A stretch of 64,000 nt of DNA from Bdellovibrionales bacterium (GTDB taxonomy: Bacteria > Bdellovibrionota > UBA1018 > CAIMNF01), in NCBI GenBank assembly GCA_947502835.1, contig CANNBJ010000002.1, forward strand, positions 248,001-312,000, given 5' to 3'. The first letter of the stretch is position 1; the number at the start of each line of letters is the position of its first letter. Below the pieces are notes generated by a model. That model searched no databases, was not told the DNA's origin, and was given only the letters and a program-made list of their open reading frames with translations. Position numbers and translations under genes: made by a program. Positions 4,497-12,719 of this stretch are shown here, one piece after another.

Positions 4497-4577
4497 GCGT
4501 TACGCAGAGAGTCATCTTTCTACGGATAAAGTGTCAATTTATTGTTCTAGGTAAGAAAGATCCTTGCTCGTGTCCTT

Positions 4578-4599
4578 AAAGTCAGATTATTCTGATTTT
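4578..4599 (+). other. AT-rich hairpin between csrA and fliW
   Basis: Bases 4578-4586 (AAAGTCAGA) can pair with 4591-4599 around a TTAT loop, with one G-U pair. It is weak, and GGGG rather than a U run follows most of it, so it is at best an attenuating structure. The rest of the 4497-4628 gap shows no other clear signal before the fliW ribosome site GGAGG. Confidence 0.25.
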
Positions 4600-4628
4600 G
4601 GGGATGAGATCTGTCCCTGGAGGTAGTT

Positions 4629-5168
4629 GTGGTCGTACAAACAGGACGTTTTGGCCAGATAGAAGTTTCCACAGACGAAATCATTTCGATTCCGAGCGGA
4701 ATACTTGGGTTTCCGGATGACCAGAATTTTTGTTTGGTGGATCCAGGAGACGAGACTCTGATCCTTTGGCTCCAGTCCCTGACAAATCCAAGGTTGGCTT
4801 TCCCTGTTCTTGAACCACGCATCTTCAAGTCCAATTACATCGTAAGGCTTTCTGCAGCAGAGTTGCGTGAGCTGCGCCTGGCTTCCATTCACGAGGCCAG
4901 TGTCTTCACGATCCTGACCATTCCGAGTCAGCTCCCCGAGATGACCGCCAACCTGAAAGCGCCGCTCGTCATCAATGTTCGCGATCGCATCGCAAAACAA
5001 GTAGTACTTCAAGAGAATGATCAGCCGATCAAGCATCCGGTTTTCAAAGAGCTTCGTGCCCAAATTGTGGCGTTTCGTGGCCTGCCCAAGGAATCGTCGA
5101 AAGCCGTCGACCGAGCTGTTCTTGCGGTCGATTCCCTTCCGCTTACGACGAAGGTCGAGCTGATTTGA
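4629..5168 (+). CDS. fliW: Flagellar assembly factor FliW, antagonist of CsrA
   Basis: The 179-residue FliW binds CsrA and, in species studied, flagellin, so free flagellin releases FliW to sequester CsrA and adjust flagellin translation. The family signature near the N-terminus is present: TGRFGQIEVSTDEIISIPSG followed by ILGFPDDQNFCLVDP. The start is a GTG at 4629 with GGAGGT a few bases upstream. It follows csrA, the usual partner position. The 3' end overlaps the end of the convergent TPR gene by 26 bases, so no terminator fits between them. The C-terminal tail is somewhat longer than in Bacillus FliW. Confidence 0.93.
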   Translation: MVVQTGRFGQIEVSTDEIISIPSGILGFPDDQNFCLVDPGDETLILWLQSLTNPRLAFPVLEPRIFKSNYIVRLSAAELRELRLASIHEASVFTILTIPSQLPEMTANLKAPLVINVRDRIAKQVVLQENDQPIKHPVFKELRAQIVAFRGLPKESSKAVDRAVLAVDSLPLTTKVELI

Positions 5169-5841
5169 TCAAATCAAGATACGCAATCGCTTCCCGGTGA
5201 ACCGGGTCAAACTCTAGCACCGACTCCCATTCAAGTTCTGCGTCGAGCACGTTTCCTTGGCTGTAGTGGAGAAGGCCTAATTGAACACGAACGGAGAGAT
5301 CGGTTGTCCTTTCTTGCTTCAGTTGCTGCAAGTCCTGGATCGCGCGCGTAATGAAGCCTTTCTTTGCCAATGCTTTCGCTCTTTTCACGCGCATGTCGAT
5401 GGATCCGGGGTCAAGGACAATCGCCTTGTTGTACTCTTCAATTGCCTCGTCAAAACGACGGTATCGAAAGTACAGGTCTCCCATCTCGAAATGTTTCACT
5501 GCGAACCTTCGATCAATTTGCAGATCATCTCCGATCTGCTTTAAAAATACGCTTTGATTCGCCTGCTCAAACACCTTCTTGGCCTCGTCATAGCGGCCAA
5601 TGTCATTCAGGATGATGCTGAGGCAGACCGCGGAATCTGTGTGCTTTGGCTCAATGAACAAAGCGCGCCGCAGATCCTCGATCGAGTCCACCAGGCGTCC
5701 TTGATAGGATCGCAAGAGCCCGCGAAGATAGTAGAAGTCGGCGTTGTCCGGCTCAAGGGAAAGCCCCTTCTTGAGTTGCTCCTCGGCGACAGCATACTTT
5801 TTCTGTTGAATGTTCTTCTGGATTTCTTTGGGTGGAATCAT
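5143..5841 (-). CDS. Soluble TPR-repeat protein
   Basis: The 232-residue protein is built of tetratricopeptide repeats, for example AEEQLKKGLSLEPDNADFYY near the start and FDEAIEEYNKAIVLDPGSID in the middle. There is no signal peptide or membrane segment, so it is probably a cytoplasmic protein-interaction scaffold. It is the last gene of a three-gene minus-strand run behind BamD and the TPR/SH3 protein, five bases after the bamD stop. The specific partner cannot be told from sequence. Its 3' end overlaps fliW, which is convergent. Confidence 0.85.
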   Translation of the reverse strand: MIPPKEIQKNIQQKKYAVAEEQLKKGLSLEPDNADFYYLRGLLRSYQGRLVDSIEDLRRALFIEPKHTDSAVCLSIILNDIGRYDEAKKVFEQANQSVFLKQIGDDLQIDRRFAVKHFEMGDLYFRYRRFDEAIEEYNKAIVLDPGSIDMRVKRAKALAKKGFITRAIQDLQQLKQERTTDLSVRVQLGLLHYSQGNVLDAELEWESVLEFDPVHREAIAYLDLIKSARPSS

Positions 5842-5845
5842 GGCC

Positions 5846-6496
5846 TCATTCCGCCTTGAGTTTTTCCATCAGGGCCTTGGCCCGGGGCGCCGGATCCGAC
5901 TCGCCATAAAGAGTGAGAATCTTTTCCAGGCGCATCCGCGCTGAATCCGGCTTCTTACGCTTGATGTAAAACTGTGCGATTTCGAGCTCCTTTTCGGCGA
6001 GTTTGTTATACGCCTTTTTCTTCATTTCAGATGCTGCTGTCCTGAACTCCCCATCAGGATGTCTCCGGAGGTAAAGCGAAAAGGTACTGATCGCACTCTC
6101 TGCCGAGCGAAGGTCACGGGCAATGGTGGTAGGAATATCATTGTAGAATGCCTCGCCCGCACGAAACAAGGCATAGGGAGCCCGATCATGTTTCGGATAC
6201 AACTCCACGAAGGTCTCATAAGCAGAGGCGGCCTCTGGATAGGATTCCTGCAGAAAGTAAACATCTCCGATCCTGAGCTGGGCAAGCGCTCCATAACTGG
6301 AGTACGAAAACTTGCTCTTGATCACACGCAATTTATCCAACGCAAGAAGAAACCGGTCGTTCTTCACGTCCTCGTCCGCGTCCTCGTACATCTCTTTTGG
6401 ATCATTCTCATTGATGGCCTTCCCGGCGCACCCCAAGAATATCTCGCAGGTGCCCAAGAGCAAAAAGAGGGCGAAAAAGGTTTTCAGAGCTCGCAT
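5846..6496 (-). CDS. bamD: BamD-like outer membrane assembly lipoprotein
   Basis: The 216-residue lipoprotein has a signal peptide ending IFLGC, with the lipidated Cys at residue 23. TPR-like helices follow, including PEAASAYETFVELYPKHDRA and the later NKLAEKELEIAQFYIKRKKP, a pattern typical of BamD/YfiO. BamD is the essential lipoprotein of the Bam machine that inserts beta-barrel proteins into the outer membrane. I start at 6496 because AGGAG lies just upstream and the signal peptide begins there; an upstream in-frame ATG at 6538 lies within the preceding gene. No bamA is nearby. A generic TPR lipoprotein remains possible, but the C-terminal LEIAQFYIKR motif supports BamD. Confidence 0.85.
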   Translation of the reverse strand: MRALKTFFALFLLLGTCEIFLGCAGKAINENDPKEMYEDADEDVKNDRFLLALDKLRVIKSKFSYSSYGALAQLRIGDVYFLQESYPEAASAYETFVELYPKHDRAPYALFRAGEAFYNDIPTTIARDLRSAESAISTFSLYLRRHPDGEFRTAASEMKKKAYNKLAEKELEIAQFYIKRKKPDSARMRLEKILTLYGESDPAPRAKALMEKLKAE

Positions 6497-6504
6497 ACAT
6501 TCTC

Positions 6505-7200
6505 CTAAAGCGGCAAGAGGCTCGAAGCGGGCAGCCATGCGGTTTCGTTCCCCTTATAGCGCACTTTTTGCCATGTTTCATTTTCATTTGCGCTGGACGG
6601 CGAGCCCACCATTCTGACCTTCACACCCGTTTCAATCGGTGAAATCTCGGGGAATGTGAGCCCCGGACCGCTCCGGAGGAGCTCCTTTACGATCAATACG
6701 GCAGGAGGATTGGAATTGGCCGAGCGATACAGCCCATAGAATGCGAAAATAACGATCAGGCCGAAAACCCCGAACCAACCGGAGGGCTTGAGCAGGGCTT
6801 TGAGCAGGCTCCGCGTTTTCAAGTAAGCCCGAATCCACAACAGGGAAACGATCAATGTGATCATTCCGATGACTCCGAAAATCTCGTCTCCCTGGATCCG
6901 ATCAGAGAAAAGCTCAAGCGGGCTTGAAGTGGAGTCGATGCCGATTTCCGAGCCTATCGAACTGAGGTGCTTTTGGAGAGCTTGCTTCGCAAGGTTGAGA
7001 TTCCGCTGCACCTCAGGATCATGGGGTTTCAGGTGGTTTGATTTTTCGAGATATGCGACCGCAGGACCCGGCAAACCCATCTTTCCGTGCAGAACGCCAA
7101 GATTGTAAAAATAGGTGGCGTCATAAGTGGGCGTGGTTTTCAAGGCCTCGATCGCCTCCTTGAATTTTCCGGAGTGCTCGAGCTGCGACAAATCTGCCAT
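6505..7200 (-). CDS. TPR / two-TM / SH3-like membrane protein, BatE-like
   Basis: The 231-residue protein has an N-terminal TPR segment (residues about 10-75), two transmembrane helices (about 107-127, IFGVIGMITLIVSLLW, and about 143-160, WFGVFGLIVIFAFYGLY) and a C-terminal SH3-like domain ending WQKVRYKGNETAWLPASSL. This TPR-TM-TM-SH3 order is that of BatE-type proteins of Bat (aerotolerance) operons. The rest of a Bat operon lies at 18.4-25.8 kb, without a BatE, so this may be its relocated member (inference). It heads a minus-strand run with BamD 8 bases downstream. Confidence 0.75.
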   Translation of the reverse strand: MADLSQLEHSGKFKEAIEALKTTPTYDATYFYNLGVLHGKMGLPGPAVAYLEKSNHLKPHDPEVQRNLNLAKQALQKHLSSIGSEIGIDSTSSPLELFSDRIQGDEIFGVIGMITLIVSLLWIRAYLKTRSLLKALLKPSGWFGVFGLIVIFAFYGLYRSANSNPPAVLIVKELLRSGPGLTFPEISPIETGVKVRMVGSPSSANENETWQKVRYKGNETAWLPASSLLPL

Positions 7201-7250
7201 TTGGCTTAATGTAGCGAGAGGGTCTCTTTGATTGCAACAAAAATAAGGTT

Positions 7251-8714
7251 TTGATATTAAAAAACAACATGTTGAGTTTTGATAAATTCAAGGATCATGC
7301 AAGGCGGGTTCTAAGCATCCCTTCACACGCGGAGTCGGGCAATGAGGAGCTTGTGCGTTACCTCCAGGCTGCCATGCATGACTATGGGATGAAAACCGCA
7401 GTTCAGCCCGTGAGCCATTCTTCAGACCAGCTGTCAAAGAGACAAGCAAATCTTCTCGGATTTGTTTCGGACTCCCTCGTCGATCGGAGCACCCGCAGGG
7501 GCCATCTATTTGTGAACCCCTTGGATGTTTCCACCGGCAATTTACCGCAGCTTTGGACTGCCACCCAGGGCAACCCGCAGGCACCCGTTGTGAATGAGCA
7601 TGGGATCGTGGGGGCAGGGGCGGTCCAGGGCAAGCTTGATTTTTTGTGTAAAATTTTTGCGGCGATCGATCTCGTCGATAAGCGGGTGCGAAGCCCCATC
7701 TATCTTGTGGGAACGAGTGCTTCGCACTTTGGGATGATGGGAAGCAGGTTCCTGATTGAATCCTTGGCGGTAAATCCCAAAACCGTGCATACCTTTGCGC
7801 CGACCGGAATGAGATCGCAGCCGAGCGCCACGGGCCAAGTTTCCTTTTCCGTGGATTTGGACTCCTCCATACGGGAACGTGATTCAAGAGGGTACAACCG
7901 GAGCCTGACGGTAACCGCGTATGGATTGGGAGTGGATTTTTCCACTCCCAAGAATGCGATCAATGCATACGAGCTTTTGATGGACTTGCTTTTGCAAGCG
8001 ACCGAGGCCGGGTTCGATTTCCAGTGGTCATCCCTTGAGGTGAAAAATGGTTCCGGAACCAATCCCGACCTGGCTTCAGCCAGAATCGCGCTCACATCCT
8101 TTCAGTTCGAGGATTTCAAGCGATTCTTGAGGGAGAGGATCGGCGAAGAGGATCAAGCCCGGTTTTATCGTGTCGATTTCGCGGGCATCACCGAGACAGT
8201 GACCAGATTTCTCCCCTCCGAGTTGATCGAAGTGGTGCTTGAGCTGGATCATGAGTGGAAACTCTTTGTTTCGAGTCTGAACGCACATTCTGATGCCAGC
8301 TTTGCAGTTCCTCAGAATCTCGGAGCTCTTTCAAGGATCCTGATGACCCCGAACGGGAAGATGCGGGTGGTGTTCGAGATCCGGACGTTGCCGTCGGTGG
8401 ATCTCTCCACGCTTGAGTCGACCTGGAGAGAGACGGTCGGGCGGGTTTCTTCGAGATATCAGAATTTCCACTTTTCTGTTCAAAGGGATTATCTCGTGCC
8501 GGGGACGCCGAAAGCACCCGGGGCCGAGGGACTGTTCACGAATTATCTCAGTGATGCGGGACTTTTCGCCAAGGCAGGCTTCCCTGTTTCTGTCCTAGGC
8601 TGTGGAACCGTCGAACATTTGCCCAAGGGACCAAATGAGGCCATTCGCTGGGGCGACCTCGAAAGTGCGATTGCACTCTATCGTGATTTGATGCTTCGAT
8701 TGAGTCAGGAATAA
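7251..8714 (+). CDS. M20-peptidase-fold protein lacking the metal-binding residues (likely pseudoenzyme)
   Basis: The 487-residue protein has the architecture of M20 metallopeptidases (DapE, acetylornithine deacetylase, desuccinylases): an N-terminal RVLSIPSHAESGNEELVRYL and a C-terminal GCGTVEHLPKGPNEAI. The metal-site motifs are altered. The HxD position reads NPLD (residues 89-92). The usual GAADMKG reads GAVQGK (123-128), losing the bridging Asp. The usual EE pair region reads TSASHF (155-160). I infer no conventional zinc hydrolase activity; a binding role is possible. The start could be the TTG at 7251 or the ATG at 7269, the latter more typical of the family. The aldehyde-dehydrogenase-like gene follows after 4 bases. 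Confidence 0.78.
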   Translation: MILKNNMLSFDKFKDHARRVLSIPSHAESGNEELVRYLQAAMHDYGMKTAVQPVSHSSDQLSKRQANLLGFVSDSLVDRSTRRGHLFVNPLDVSTGNLPQLWTATQGNPQAPVVNEHGIVGAGAVQGKLDFLCKIFAAIDLVDKRVRSPIYLVGTSASHFGMMGSRFLIESLAVNPKTVHTFAPTGMRSQPSATGQVSFSVDLDSSIRERDSRGYNRSLTVTAYGLGVDFSTPKNAINAYELLMDLLLQATEAGFDFQWSSLEVKNGSGTNPDLASARIALTSFQFEDFKRFLRERIGEEDQARFYRVDFAGITETVTRFLPSELIEVVLELDHEWKLFVSSLNAHSDASFAVPQNLGALSRILMTPNGKMRVVFEIRTLPSVDLSTLESTWRETVGRVSSRYQNFHFSVQRDYLVPGTPKAPGAEGLFTNYLSDAGLFAKAGFPVSVLGCGTVEHLPKGPNEAIRWGDLESAIALYRDLMLRLSQE

Positions 8715-8718
8715 CCGA

Positions 8719-10083
8719 GTGGAGAACTGCAAGAGTCTCCTCAATGCCGAGCGAACTTCAGCACCGGTGGGAAGCCGATGCCAGCAAGGAGTTCTGGAGG
8801 TGGATTTTTCCGAGATCCCTCTTGCAATCCATTGGGCGAAAGAGTGTTTTGGATCGGGGGGAAATGGCAAACCCCTGAGCATCTCGATTGAAGATCTCCA
8901 GAGGGTGAAGGATGCATTGCTCTCGCTCCGGGAAGATTTATATTCCTGTGCAAAAGAGGAATCGGGGCGAACTCGTGCCGATTTTGATCTGGAACTCAAG
9001 ACACTGCTCAGGTATTTGGAGGCGTTTCAGGCCGCCCATCCGGGTTTGCAGGGGTGCGTGCCAAGGGGAGTTTCAGTATGGATCGGCTCTTCGGTTTGGC
9101 CAATCCACTATGGAACCCAAGCTCTTTTGGCGAATCTTTTTGCAGGGAATGCGCTCATCTTTAAACCATCGGAGAAAGTCACTCGAATCGTTCTCAAGTG
9201 GGTACAGGCGCTCAGGGAGCTCGGGGGTCCGTTCCAAACGGTTCAGGTGATTGTCGGGGAAAAGGAGACGGGACGCCGACTGGTTTGTCATGAGGATGTC
9301 GACCTCGTGATGGTTCAGGGCACCTATGAGACTGGAATGAGGGTTAGGCAAGACACGCTTTCCAGTCCCGGCAAAGAAGTGCTCTTGTTCCTCGGTGCAA
9401 AGAACCCTGTGATTCTGAACCGCGAGCCCGACCTCGATTTATGCAAGAAAATCCTCGAAAACGCGTTTGTTTGTGCCGGCCAACATTGCATGAGCACGCC
9501 ACTGCTTTTTGTCCGGTCTGATCATCTTGAGCAAACGCGGATGATGATCTTGCGAGCTCACCATGAAATGGTGGCGAGTGATGATGCCGGTGAGTTCTGG
9601 TTTGGACCCTTTCAGGATCAAGCACGGCTTGAAAGATATTTAAAGTTCATCCATGTCCTTGAAAAGGAGGGCGCACGCCTGGAGAAAAGAGGGAATCGGG
9701 ATCGGGAGCGCCTCGAGTCCTGCTTTGCCAGTGCAACAGTGGCGATTTTCCCTGCGCTGAGTCGGACACAAACTCGAAAGATGGAGAGTTTCCAGGTCGA
9801 GGTCCTCGGACCGCATCTTTCCATTGTACCATTTGAGAACCTTACGGATCTGGAGGCGCTTCTTGGCGGTCTTTCTTTTGGAATGGCGAGCTCTTATTTC
9901 GGGGATCCAAGTGAAATCCAGGGGATTCTTTCACGCAATCCGCTGGGAACGATTGCGCTCAATCACGGGTCATTTGAGCTGAACCCTTGGAGAGCACCCA
10001 TTGCACGAAAGAAAAGTGGAAATCACGGCCGTTTCGGGCAACAACTCCTGGATCAAGTGTGTTTGGAGCGAGTACAAAAATAA
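8719..10083 (+). CDS. Aldehyde-dehydrogenase-superfamily protein with altered active site
   Basis: The 454-residue protein resembles NAD(P)-dependent aldehyde dehydrogenases of the succinylglutamate-semialdehyde (AstD) type: FAGNALIFKPSEK for cofactor binding and NAFVCAGQHCMST with the nucleophile position Cys257 kept. The general-base Glu of the usual LELGGKNP is replaced (LLFLGAKNP, Phe224), and the oxyanion Asn of the usual PWNFP is not seen (SSVWPIHY, residues 124-131). Conventional dehydrogenase turnover is therefore doubtful; esterase, acyl-transfer or binding roles remain possible. It starts with GTG at 8719, with CAGGAA upstream overlapping the end of the M20-like gene, so the two are coupled. 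A terminator overlaps its stop. Confidence 0.8.
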   Translation: MENCKSLLNAERTSAPVGSRCQQGVLEVDFSEIPLAIHWAKECFGSGGNGKPLSISIEDLQRVKDALLSLREDLYSCAKEESGRTRADFDLELKTLLRYLEAFQAAHPGLQGCVPRGVSVWIGSSVWPIHYGTQALLANLFAGNALIFKPSEKVTRIVLKWVQALRELGGPFQTVQVIVGEKETGRRLVCHEDVDLVMVQGTYETGMRVRQDTLSSPGKEVLLFLGAKNPVILNREPDLDLCKKILENAFVCAGQHCMSTPLLFVRSDHLEQTRMMILRAHHEMVASDDAGEFWFGPFQDQARLERYLKFIHVLEKEGARLEKRGNRDRERLESCFASATVAIFPALSRTQTRKMESFQVEVLGPHLSIVPFENLTDLEALLGGLSFGMASSYFGDPSEIQGILSRNPLGTIALNHGSFELNPWRAPIARKKSGNHGRFGQQLLDQVCLERVQK

Positions 10084-10112
10084 AAAGCCCCGTGTTTGCA
10101 CACAGGGCTTTT
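10083..10112. terminator. Bidirectional rho-independent terminator
   Basis: The stem AAAAGCCC (10083-10090) pairs with GGGCTTTT (10105-10112), extended inward by pairing of GTGT with ACAC. On the minus strand the stem is followed by TTTTTATTTTTG, a good U tract, so it best serves the cold-shock gene. On the plus strand the tail is only TTTT, and it would end the ALDH-like gene, whose stop codon it touches. Confidence 0.75.
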
Positions 10113-10134
10113 CGGTGAAACTTTTAGTTGAGGT

Positions 10135-10353
10135 TCAGTTATCGAACTTGGTTACGTTGTACGCTTGCGGACCCTTTGGGCCGGATACCAATTCGAATTG
10201 AACAGCCTGTCCTTCAGAGAGGGTCTTGAAGCCATCTCCCTGAATCGCGCTGTAATGCACGAAGATATCTCCGTCTACGGTCTCGGTTTGAACGAAGCCA
10301 AAACCTTTTGCGTCATTGAACCACTTCACGGTGCCTTTTACCTGAGTTGCCAT
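10135..10353 (-). CDS. Cold-shock domain protein (CspA family)
   Basis: The 72-residue single cold-shock domain contains both RNA-binding motifs, KGFGFVQT and DIFVHYSAI, and the typical start of a [14 protein letters not shown]. It acts as a single-stranded nucleic-acid chaperone. The length is slightly above the usual 66-70 residues because of a short DGD insertion after the first motif. It has a ribosome site AAAGGGGA and stands as a monocistronic unit with its own terminator at 10083-10112. The usual long csp leader cannot be confirmed: only about 85 bases separate it from the upstream terminator. Confidence 0.95.
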
Positions 10354-10435
10354 TAAAATCCCCTTTCAAAACTAGATGTGAGCAACAACTGATGTCTATA
10401 AACAAGGGATAGCGGTTCGTCAGATTTCCGTCAAA

Positions 10436-10517: not shown

Positions 10518-12569
10518 TCAGATCATTCCACCATTTCCCCAAGAATTGAAATTGCCACTCAGGGGAACTGCGACGGGAAGAGATCCTGCACCTGGATTTG
10601 AGGGCTGGACAAACCCTCCGTTTTGTGGAGACCCGCTTGGAGAGAACGAGGTCGCGGAGAATCCATTGCTTGGTTGCTGCATGAACCCAGGCTGCTGCAT
10701 GAACCCAGGCTGTTGCATGAACCCAGGCTGTTGCATGAACCCAGGCTGTTGCATGAACCCAGGCTGTTGCATGAACCCAGGCTGTTGCATGAACCCAGGC
10801 TGTTGCATGAACCCAGAGTTGTTACCGGCTACGGGGAAGGTAGCGTACTGGAATCCATTTGCTTGAGGTCCCATTTGCTGGCCAGGGAAGTTCACTTGGT
10901 TATTGAAAGCCCCGGGCATCATTCCATTCATGGATTGCTGGATACCAGAGTAGCGCTGCGACAGGGTTTGGTACGTCTTCAGGGTCTGCTCGTACTCAAA
11001 GCGGGCCTGATTGCAGGCGGCAAAAGTGGCAGGGTTCATCCAAGCGCAGCTTCGCTGCATATTCATGCCAAGGTATTGAAGGTCGGCGTGTCCGCTGTTC
11101 AAAGCGTCCAGAACCTCAACGTGTGCCGGATCCAGAGTAGAGAGGAAATCCACTCGCGCAAGGCCGCCTTGTGAAAATTCAGAGGCGATTTGCTTCTCAT
11201 TCTCGCGGCTTGCAGGATCGAGACCTGGAAGCTGAGAGAGCGCATCGTGGGTTGAGGCGATGAAATCGGCATGGTCGGACTCGGCACCACAAACCTTCCT
11301 GCTGTAGAAGCTTCGTTCATTGGATTTGGATGCGCAGGCCTTTTTTGATTCTTCAGCGATGCGTTTATTTGCATCAAGAAGAAGGTCCATTCCCGCGGCA
11401 ACCGCAGAGAGCATTGCTTCCTTGTCCGCGCCATCCATCGAGAGCTTATCCATTTGTTTTGCAAGATCCATGAGCTCTTCACGGAGGCGCTTCAGCTCAG
11501 AGAGGGACTTTGCATTACGAATCCCTTCTTCGATGTGTGCAAGTGACTTCCGGATCAGCTCCTTTTGGGTGCCAACCAGGAAAGAGTAATCCAGTCCGTT
11601 CACTTCGTCGATCAGCTCGCGGGTAAGCTCTGGATTCTTGTCGCACTCAGGGCAGTTTCCGACTGCGAGTTCAATTTTCTTGAATGTTGGAGACGCGGCA
11701 AGAGGGCTTACCTCGGAGAATTCCCCGGACTCGTCCAGAAGGCCGGCGATCATGGCGCTCCCGGAGTGATCAACGTACTTCTTTAGCTTGATGCCTTTAT
11801 TCTTGGACTCCTTATTCTTTTCAACGCACTCGGCGAGAGTTGTTTCGCCCTCCACTCCGGTGTACACGAGTCCGACGCCCACGCGCTTGGAGCGCTTCAT
11901 CAGCTCTTGGGTGGTCGAGACGGTTTCGCTCGAGTCTGCTTTTTCAGAATCAAAGTACTTGCGATCCTTAAGCTTCAGGCGACTTGCGCAGGCATCAGGA
12001 AGTGATCCAGTCACCTCAAGGTTGTGATCTACAAATTGAAGTTTCAGGTTGTGCTCGCTTAGATCGTCAGAAGTCAGGTGCACGCTTGCGGTTGAAGCTG
12101 CGGGCGTTTTTGATTCTGTAGGGGTCTTTGCTTCAGCAGCCTTTGCCTCTGCAGCCTTTGCCTCTGCAGCCTTTGCCTCTGCAGCAGCCTTTGCCTCAGC
12201 AGCAGCCTTGTCATTCAGATGCTTTTCGTGTGATTCGTATAGCTTATTGATCACTTCTGGATTGAGAAAAGCTTCTGTGTTCCCCGATGTGGCGCCAACA
12301 CCATTGTCATCCCTAAACTTAATCAAAGCCTTTTGTAAATCGGCATCGACCTTTCCGTCCACATCGCCAACAAATCCAGTAGATTCACTGAGGTCTTTAA
12401 GAATCGTCTCAAGTGCTTTCGTATCTTGTTCTGAGAGAACTTGTTTCTTTTTCTTAACTAGGTATCCCTTCCCGTTAATCGCGGGAGTATCTTTATGTTT
12501 CCCAAAGCTCGCTTGTGGGAGCCCGAGTAGGGCAATGATCATGAGGGAACTATAGACTGTTTTTTTCAT
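10518..12569 (-). CDS. Large secreted protein with PG-binding-like domain and C-terminal GFMQQP repeats
   Basis: The 683-residue protein has a signal peptide (MKKTVYSSLMIIALLGLPQ then ASFGK). A segment resembling a peptidoglycan-binding-1 domain follows (GDVDGKVDADLQKALIKFRD), then an Ala/Lys/Glu-rich linker of AEAKA units. A long middle region is rich in predicted helices and has several Cys, including CPEC. The C-terminal region is rich in Gln, Asn, Gly and Pro and carries eight exact GFMQQP repeats. I start at 12569, with AGGAG upstream; an ORF start at 12644 lacks this site and would precede the signal peptide. Function is unknown; a cell-wall-associated periplasmic or exported protein is likely. 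Confidence 0.8.
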   Translation of the reverse strand: MKKTVYSSLMIIALLGLPQASFGKHKDTPAINGKGYLVKKKKQVLSEQDTKALETILKDLSESTGFVGDVDGKVDADLQKALIKFRDDNGVGATSGNTEAFLNPEVINKLYESHEKHLNDKAAAEAKAAAEAKAAEAKAAEAKAAEAKTPTESKTPAASTASVHLTSDDLSEHNLKLQFVDHNLEVTGSLPDACASRLKLKDRKYFDSEKADSSETVSTTQELMKRSKRVGVGLVYTGVEGETTLAECVEKNKESKNKGIKLKKYVDHSGSAMIAGLLDESGEFSEVSPLAASPTFKKIELAVGNCPECDKNPELTRELIDEVNGLDYSFLVGTQKELIRKSLAHIEEGIRNAKSLSELKRLREELMDLAKQMDKLSMDGADKEAMLSAVAAGMDLLLDANKRIAEESKKACASKSNERSFYSRKVCGAESDHADFIASTHDALSQLPGLDPASRENEKQIASEFSQGGLARVDFLSTLDPAHVEVLDALNSGHADLQYLGMNMQRSCAWMNPATFAACNQARFEYEQTLKTYQTLSQRYSGIQQSMNGMMPGAFNNQVNFPGQQMGPQANGFQYATFPVAGNNSGFMQQPGFMQQPGFMQQPGFMQQPGFMQQPGFMQQPGFMQQPGFMQQPSNGFSATSFSPSGSPQNGGFVQPSNPGAGSLPVAVPLSGNFNSWGNGGMI
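10672..10815 (-). repeat. Eight in-frame 18-bp tandem repeats encoding GFMQQP
   Basis: There are eight copies of the 18-base unit (plus-strand form GGCTGTTGCATGAACCCA). Six copies are identical, and the two copies at the low-coordinate end differ at one or two bases. Near-identity at DNA level implies recent expansion or homogenisation by slippage or recombination. The reading frame is kept for any copy number. Confidence 0.97.
12121..12213 (-). repeat. 15-bp-type repeats encoding the AEAKA linker
   Basis: Repeated plus-strand units of GCAGCCTTTGCCTCT, with some copies gaining an extra GCA codon, encode a run of (A)AEAKA. This gives a Lys/Glu/Ala-rich, probably helical or extended spacer between the PG-binding-like domain and the rest of the secreted protein. 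Confidence 0.85.
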
Positions 12570-12719
12570 ACATCTCTCCTGAAAGGTAAAGCTCTCAGGT
12601 AGGGAGAAGCAAGAATGGGGCCAGTGCCAGGATGCCCTAGACAAGGATTAAGCTCCCTGTAAAAGGTTTGGACTCTACAGGTGTCTAAAGAGTGGACAGC
12701 CTGCTCCAAGCCTTAGGCG

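Follow-up and report, generated by a model that had tools for sequence, protein, structure and literature searches.

A retained M20-like and ALDH-like protein pair as a probable remnant of an AST-type operon in Bdellovibrionota

The window, a stretch of 64,000 nucleotides from a Bdellovibrionales bacterium, contains two adjacent genes, for an M20-like and an ALDH-like protein, that are probably the remnant of an AST-type operon, in which the M20-like protein would have been re-purposed for binding or scaffolding as a dimer free of metal and the ALDH-like protein would be a faster-evolving satellite. Both reading frames are full-length and intact with a gap of 4 bases, as an earlier note on this DNA had described, and confident AlphaFold2 models of an M20 and an ALDH fold bear out its statement that the fold signatures are kept. 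Its central observation, that both proteins lack key catalytic residues, is borne out by alignment against catalytically intact relatives from the phylum, where every loss it had named was seen again and no intact ligand was found elsewhere in the alignment. As the losses hold genus-wide, they are not sequencing errors. The features of the region are collected in Table 1.

Table 1. Features of the gene pair and its surroundings (window coordinates)
Feature	Position	Strand	Basis or remark
Divergent neighbour block TPR / BamD (YfiO) / TPR-SH3	5143..7200	-	BamD and TPR genes lie next to the operon in many phylum genomes
Conserved operon promoter-like element, TTGCAA - 17 nt - TATTAA, TG before second hexamer	7232..7260	+	conservation, position
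M20-like pseudoenzyme gene (ArgE/DapE-type fold; inactivity predicted)	7251..8714	+	ORF of 487 aa; 481 aa from ATG 7269
Former HxD motif: His to Pro90, Leu91, Asp92 kept	7518..7526	+	alignment
Former bridging Asp to Gln126, 12/12 in genus	7626..7628	+	alignment
Former catalytic Glu and ligand Glu to Ser158-His159	7722..7727	+	alignment
Former Glu ligand (third carboxylate, GEP motif) to Ala183	7797..7799	+	alignment
Former trans-acting His of dimerisation domain to Asp229	7935..7937	+	alignment
Former C-terminal His ligand to Lys459	8625..8627	+	alignment
AstD-derived ALDH-like protein gene	8719..10083	+	ORF of 454 aa
Shortened segment, putative oligomerisation arm, 16 residues vs 32 in intact relatives	9022..9060	+	approximate boundaries
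Oxyanion Asn to Val126	9094..9096	+	alignment
Lys149 kept, NAD contact, KPSE motif (Lys192 equivalent)	9163..9165	+	alignment
Catalytic Glu to Phe224	9388..9390	+	alignment
Catalytic Cys257 kept, 10/10 in genus	9487..9489	+	alignment
Glu361 kept, NAD ribose contact (Glu399 equivalent)	9799..9801	+	alignment
Terminator-like hairpin between ALDH gene and convergent cold-shock-like gene	10082..10113	.	scored on - strand only

Operon of origin and genomic setting

Their counterparts in 77 related Bdellovibrionota genomes sit in an AST-type operon comprised of a class-III aminotransferase, an M20 deacylase, AstA, and AstD. The gene identities were assigned with Pfam and NCBIfam, AstA and AstD being clearly recognised, and the operon would encode an AST-type (succinyltransferase) pathway for which ornithine or arginine is the likely substrate. 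Aminotransferase, AstA, AstD, and desuccinylase genes occur together in these relatives and do not in the window's genome, where, at 98% completeness, no match to AstA and no ortholog of the operonic aminotransferase was found. Relocation of either gene to another part of the genome was rejected, as AstA has no match and the aminotransferases present are distant (∼30% identity). The pathway is thus gone from this genome. Across the 12 genomes of the genus the M20-like gene occurs in 12, the ALDH gene in 10, AstA in 2, and the aminotransferase in 0, counts in which absence can reflect contig ends because the named genomes are nearly all draft MAGs. Surviving AstA and aminotransferase genes in the relatives look intact, with the invariant aminotransferase lysine present in 40 of 40. 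The degeneracy of both neighbours is accounted for by loss of the pathway, and their adjacency by inheritance from an AST-type operon of which the aminotransferase and AstA were also part.

The segment at 7232-7260 (TTGCAACAAAAATAAG..TTTGATATT) is near-identical in all genomes of the genus and recognisable in many order-level relatives, and the 27-bp element carries 0–2 mismatches in the 11 other genus genomes. A simple promoter consensus scan did not flag it; its position and conservation suggest that it acts as a promoter. Among genomes of the order it lies before the aminotransferase gene where that gene is present and before the M20 gene where it is absent, which indicates that deletion of the aminotransferase joined the operon promoter to the M20 gene. 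A regulon built on the element was rejected, since a search of the window's genome allowing 3 mismatches gave a single copy. Because TTG 7251 falls within the conserved element, the true start of the M20-like protein is probably ATG 7269. Transcription directed by the second hexamer would begin near this ATG, and the mRNA could therefore be leaderless.

The BamD-TPR block lies beside the AST-type operon in many genomes of the phylum, an ancient linkage. On the other side of the pair, a small cold-shock-like gene (10137-10354, - strand; identity judged by eye) is convergent with the ALDH gene. A large open reading frame at 10518-12644 (- strand) contains a near-perfect tandem array in which an 18-bp unit recurs 7.7 times (10678-10816) and is translated as a PGFMQQ repeat, and a 15-bp Ala/Lys/Glu-rich array at 12126-12203.

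Active sites, folds, and selection

The M20 site alignment, comprised of catalytically intact relatives of the same phylum, was anchored on Escherichia coli ArgE (PDB 7rsf), with ligand assignments taken from DapE (PMC4012986). Of the two-metal site found in M20 metallo-deacylases, neither the catalytic Glu nor any of the five metal ligands survives in the window protein, where Pro90, Gln126, Ser158, His159, Ala183, and Lys459 occupy their positions. Seven of the eight former catalytic positions are changed, Asp92 of the HxD motif being the sole exception, and the changed sites are fixed in 12 of 12 genus genomes, except that position 159 is His or Gln and position 183 is Ala or Ser. The Pfam M20 match (5.8e-4) lies under the curated cut-off; the top PDB match by sequence is E. 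coli ArgE. The AlphaFold2 model (pLDDT 89.7) contains both the catalytic and the dimerisation domain folds and has as its top Foldseek match the di-zinc ArgE structure 8uw6 (E 3e-25). Arg378 is retained and, in an alignment made by eye, is equivalent to Arg258 of DapE, suggesting a ligand that bears a carboxylate; ligand binding by the M20-like protein would be consistent with this conservation. With its catalytic residues lost, its frame intact, and its sequence under selection, the M20-like protein qualifies as a pseudoenzyme whose inactivity is predicted.

The second protein is recognised clearly as an ALDH by Pfam (1.6e-44) and scores far under the curated AstD score. The best PDB matches of the ALDH family profile are the AstD structures 5u0l, 3ju8, and 4kna, and the AlphaFold2 model (pLDDT 86.9), which adopts the ALDH fold, has a betaine-ALDH as its best PDB match. 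With residues assigned according to two reviews (PMC8160307 and PMC10650815), Cys257 alone remains of the Cys/Glu/Asn catalytic set. The Asn and Glu are lost in all ten ALDHs of the genus, with varying residues at those positions, and the Cys, the Lys, and the Glu399 equivalent are kept in all ten. About 16 residues are missing from a segment that, from its position, we take to be the oligomerisation arm. This segment measures 14–20 residues in 10 of 10 genus ALDHs compared with 32 in nearly all intact ALDHs, and normal oligomerisation has therefore probably been lost. Residue loss and selection are evident, and a verdict that this ALDH is dead with certainty would be unwarranted, because human ALDH18A1 has, among the classical catalytic residues, only the Cys (PMC10650815). 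By the same analogy, thiol chemistry on Cys257 is possible.

Both genes are under purifying selection, in line with the low dN/dS across relatives that the earlier note had named as a check. In the closest trio of genomes (G001, G006, and G009) dN/dS is 0.011-0.019 for the M20 gene, compared with 0.025-0.040 for FlgL and 0.07-0.08 for the ALDH gene, values that are approximate because dS is mostly 1.4-3.3 or saturated. Relative to BamD, and averaged over all genus pairs, the M20-like protein evolves at 1.05 against 0.64 for intact M20 proteins (∼1.6-fold), which indicates that part of its history was relaxed. The genus ALDH evolves at 2.21 against 0.63 for intact ALDHs (∼3.5-fold) and thus at about twice the M20 rate on this scale. 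Within the former M20 pocket, five of the seven changed sites (now Pro, Gln, Ser, Asp, and Lys) are invariant in the 12 genomes, compared with 26% of all columns (P = 0.015). Furthermore, 27 columns are fixed differently from the intact enzymes and 14 of these lie no more than 4 residues from a catalytic position (P = 9e-8), or 8 of 21 when the catalytic columns themselves are left out (P = 4e-4). The pocket was rebuilt and thereafter conserved.

Recurrence across the phylum and competing explanations

State changes were counted on a quick tree of the 77 M20 proteins, built with the catalytic columns excluded and containing 20 poorly supported forks. The M20 sites are incomplete in 41 of 77 genomes, with at least 11 state changes, and the ALDH sites in 24 of 62, with at least 8; aminotransferase presence changes at least 7 times on the M20 tree. 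These counts are parsimony minima and alone do not separate loss from gain. The ALDH is degenerate in 23 of the 26 genomes without the aminotransferase and in 1 of the 36 with it (Fisher 1e-12, or 1e-8 without the genus), a value that overstates the evidence given how few independent pairs exist: in phylogenetically independent pairs the direction agrees in ∼3.1 of 4 and never opposes, too few for significance. M20 degeneration, unlike that of the ALDH, does not closely track aminotransferase loss. Strict co-loss of the two sites was rejected, with both intact in 23 genomes, both degenerate in 17, only the M20 degenerate in 15, and only the ALDH in 7. The ALDH Asn, Glu, and Cys are all changed in G081, G097, G108, and G114 next to an intact M20 (one residue off in G097), and in G123, G089, and G095 an intact ALDH accompanies an M20 that lacks the catalytic Glu pair. 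Degenerate ALDHs keep the NAD-contact Lys in all cases, and of those that can be read at the NAD-contact Glu only G108 has lost it, a pattern suggesting that dinucleotide binding is the feature they have all retained.

Further degenerate AstD-type ALDHs were noted at loci L071 (G018), L073 (G039), L046 (G057), L190 (G081), L188 (G097), and L195 (G114), several of which have also lost the catalytic Cys and keep both NAD contacts. At L042 (G016, 4565-6032) the M20 gene is split into two overlapping frames, by either a frameshift or an assembly error; the M20 site of this lineage is degenerate as well.

From the origin, residue losses, missing pathway genes, retained promoter, and purifying selection seen in the sequences, we infer a course of events that extends to the pathway substrate, the order of steps, the binding of a ligand, the formation of dimers, and the precise role. 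The ancestral operon would have served ornithine/arginine catabolism by N-succinylation through the aminotransferase, the M20 deacylase, AstA, and AstD. In the ancestor of the genus the aminotransferase gene would have been deleted, placing the operon promoter directly ahead of the M20 gene, and the pathway abandoned. The M20 protein would then have lost its two-metal site, had its pocket rebuilt with new, now-fixed residues, and come under strong purifying selection. Today it would most likely act in binding or scaffolding as a dimer without metal and would still recognise a carboxylate-bearing ligand via Arg378. The AstD-derived protein would be a faster-evolving, dispensable satellite that probably no longer oligomerises normally or oxidises aldehydes in the ordinary way; with its NAD(P) contacts and Cys257 kept, it may bind NAD(P) or carry out a Cys-only reaction. 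A wider version, which we hold tentatively and consider possible but doubtful, is that the AST-type operon proteins of Bdellovibrionota had a second, non-catalytic function predating pathway loss, hence the repeated inactivation, in separate lineages and now of one protein, now of the other, of M20 and AstD proteins that nevertheless stay full-length and in place; the genus M20 would then be a dedicated metal-free binder.

The earlier note had proposed that the pair is selected for a joint non-classical role, the two proteins acting together in a pseudoenzyme heterocomplex or in joint ligand sensing. Selection on both genes stands, and the 4-base spacing, which probably places them in one transcription unit, together with the fact that in the genus such an ALDH is never seen without the M20 gene, would suit this proposal. 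Its jointness, however, is not supported: the adjacency was inherited, G004 and G007 keep the M20 gene and have no ALDH, so that the expected co-conservation fails in 2 of 12 genus genomes, the two rates differ strongly, and across the phylum a degenerate ALDH accompanies an intact M20 (G081, G108, and G114) as well as the reverse (G123, G089, and G095). A joint role is thus unneeded to explain the pair, and we regard it as quite improbable. A different reaction, run by the M20 pocket (Gln126, Ser158, His/Gln159, Asp229, and Lys459) or by Cys257 of the ALDH, for example reduction of an activated acyl group by the Cys alone, in the manner of ALDH18A1/ProA-type enzymes, would fit the fixation of new polar residues in the M20 protein, the retention of Cys257 and the NAD contacts in all genus ALDHs, and the example of ALDH18A1, in which Cys is the sole classical catalytic residue (PMC10650815). 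We nevertheless consider new catalysis unlikely, as residue 159 is Gln in G004, G005, and G007, so that a Ser-His mechanism would not be general, the oligomerisation-arm residues are lost from the ALDH, and the neighbourhood predicts no activated acyl substrate.

Slow decay, in which both genes are nascent pseudogenes that persist only through recent loss of the pathway, would account for the relaxed and shortened ALDH and for the outright loss of one or more of these genes in other lineages. Against this, the frames are open in 12 of 12 M20 and 10 of 10 ALDH genes of the genus at near-saturated synonymous divergence (the M20 match in G005 is reported with one in-frame TAG near its start), dN/dS is far below 1 for both genes, and new residues have been fixed in the M20 pocket, which together leave decay very unlikely. 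An operon remnant with a re-purposed M20 protein and a satellite ALDH is, in our assessment, the probable explanation.

Relation to known systems

The M20-like protein resembles ArgE and DapE of peptidase family M20 in its dimerisation-domain fold, in having ArgE as its top PDB match by both sequence and structure, and in the retained counterpart of DapE Arg258. It differs in lacking the catalytic Glu along with every one of the five metal ligands, and in its sub-threshold Pfam M20 match. Similarly, the ALDH-like protein shares operon position, profile match, NAD contacts, and Cys with AstD (N-succinylglutamate 5-semialdehyde dehydrogenase), but is without the Glu and Asn, has a shortened arm segment, and scores far under the AstD cut-off. 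Among pseudoenzymes, human ALDH16A1 is likewise a retained protein that has the ALDH fold and no catalytic set (PMC10650815, PMC8160307); it lacks the Cys that the window ALDH keeps, and ALDHs devoid of Asn, Glu, and Cys occur here in G081, G097, G108, and G114. Metallopeptidase pseudoenzymes (pseudopeptidases) that have lost metal ligands and retained their fold are described in one review (PMC11266112), and the M20-like protein follows the same pattern; a term search of that review returned no discussion of family M20. In the limited literature searched, no description was found of M20 pseudoenzymes, of a Bdellovibrio AST operon, or of recurrent inactivation of an AST-type operon, and arginine, succinyl, and acetylornithine genes go unmentioned in the main text of a Bdellovibrio Tn-seq paper (PMC6561027). 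A link to defence systems was rejected, with no PADLOC match for either protein.

The relatives carry the aminotransferase-M20-AstA-AstD set of an AST operon, with an M20 deacylase at the desuccinylase step where enterobacteria use AstE, whereas the window keeps two of the four genes, neither with a full active site. Annotation pipelines would otherwise predict arginine/ornithine degradation in organisms that are probably incapable of it by this route. Pseudoenzymes are a known kind; what appears new, as far as this limited literature indicates, is M20 pseudoenzymes and the repeated inactivation of members of an AST-type operon. Most descriptions of pseudoenzymes deal with a single protein. 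In the present case, one four-gene catabolic operon in one phylum presents every stage, from intact, through either member or both without an active site, to a re-stabilised pseudoenzyme, and with many independent natural repeats it becomes possible to ask when and why dead enzymes are kept.
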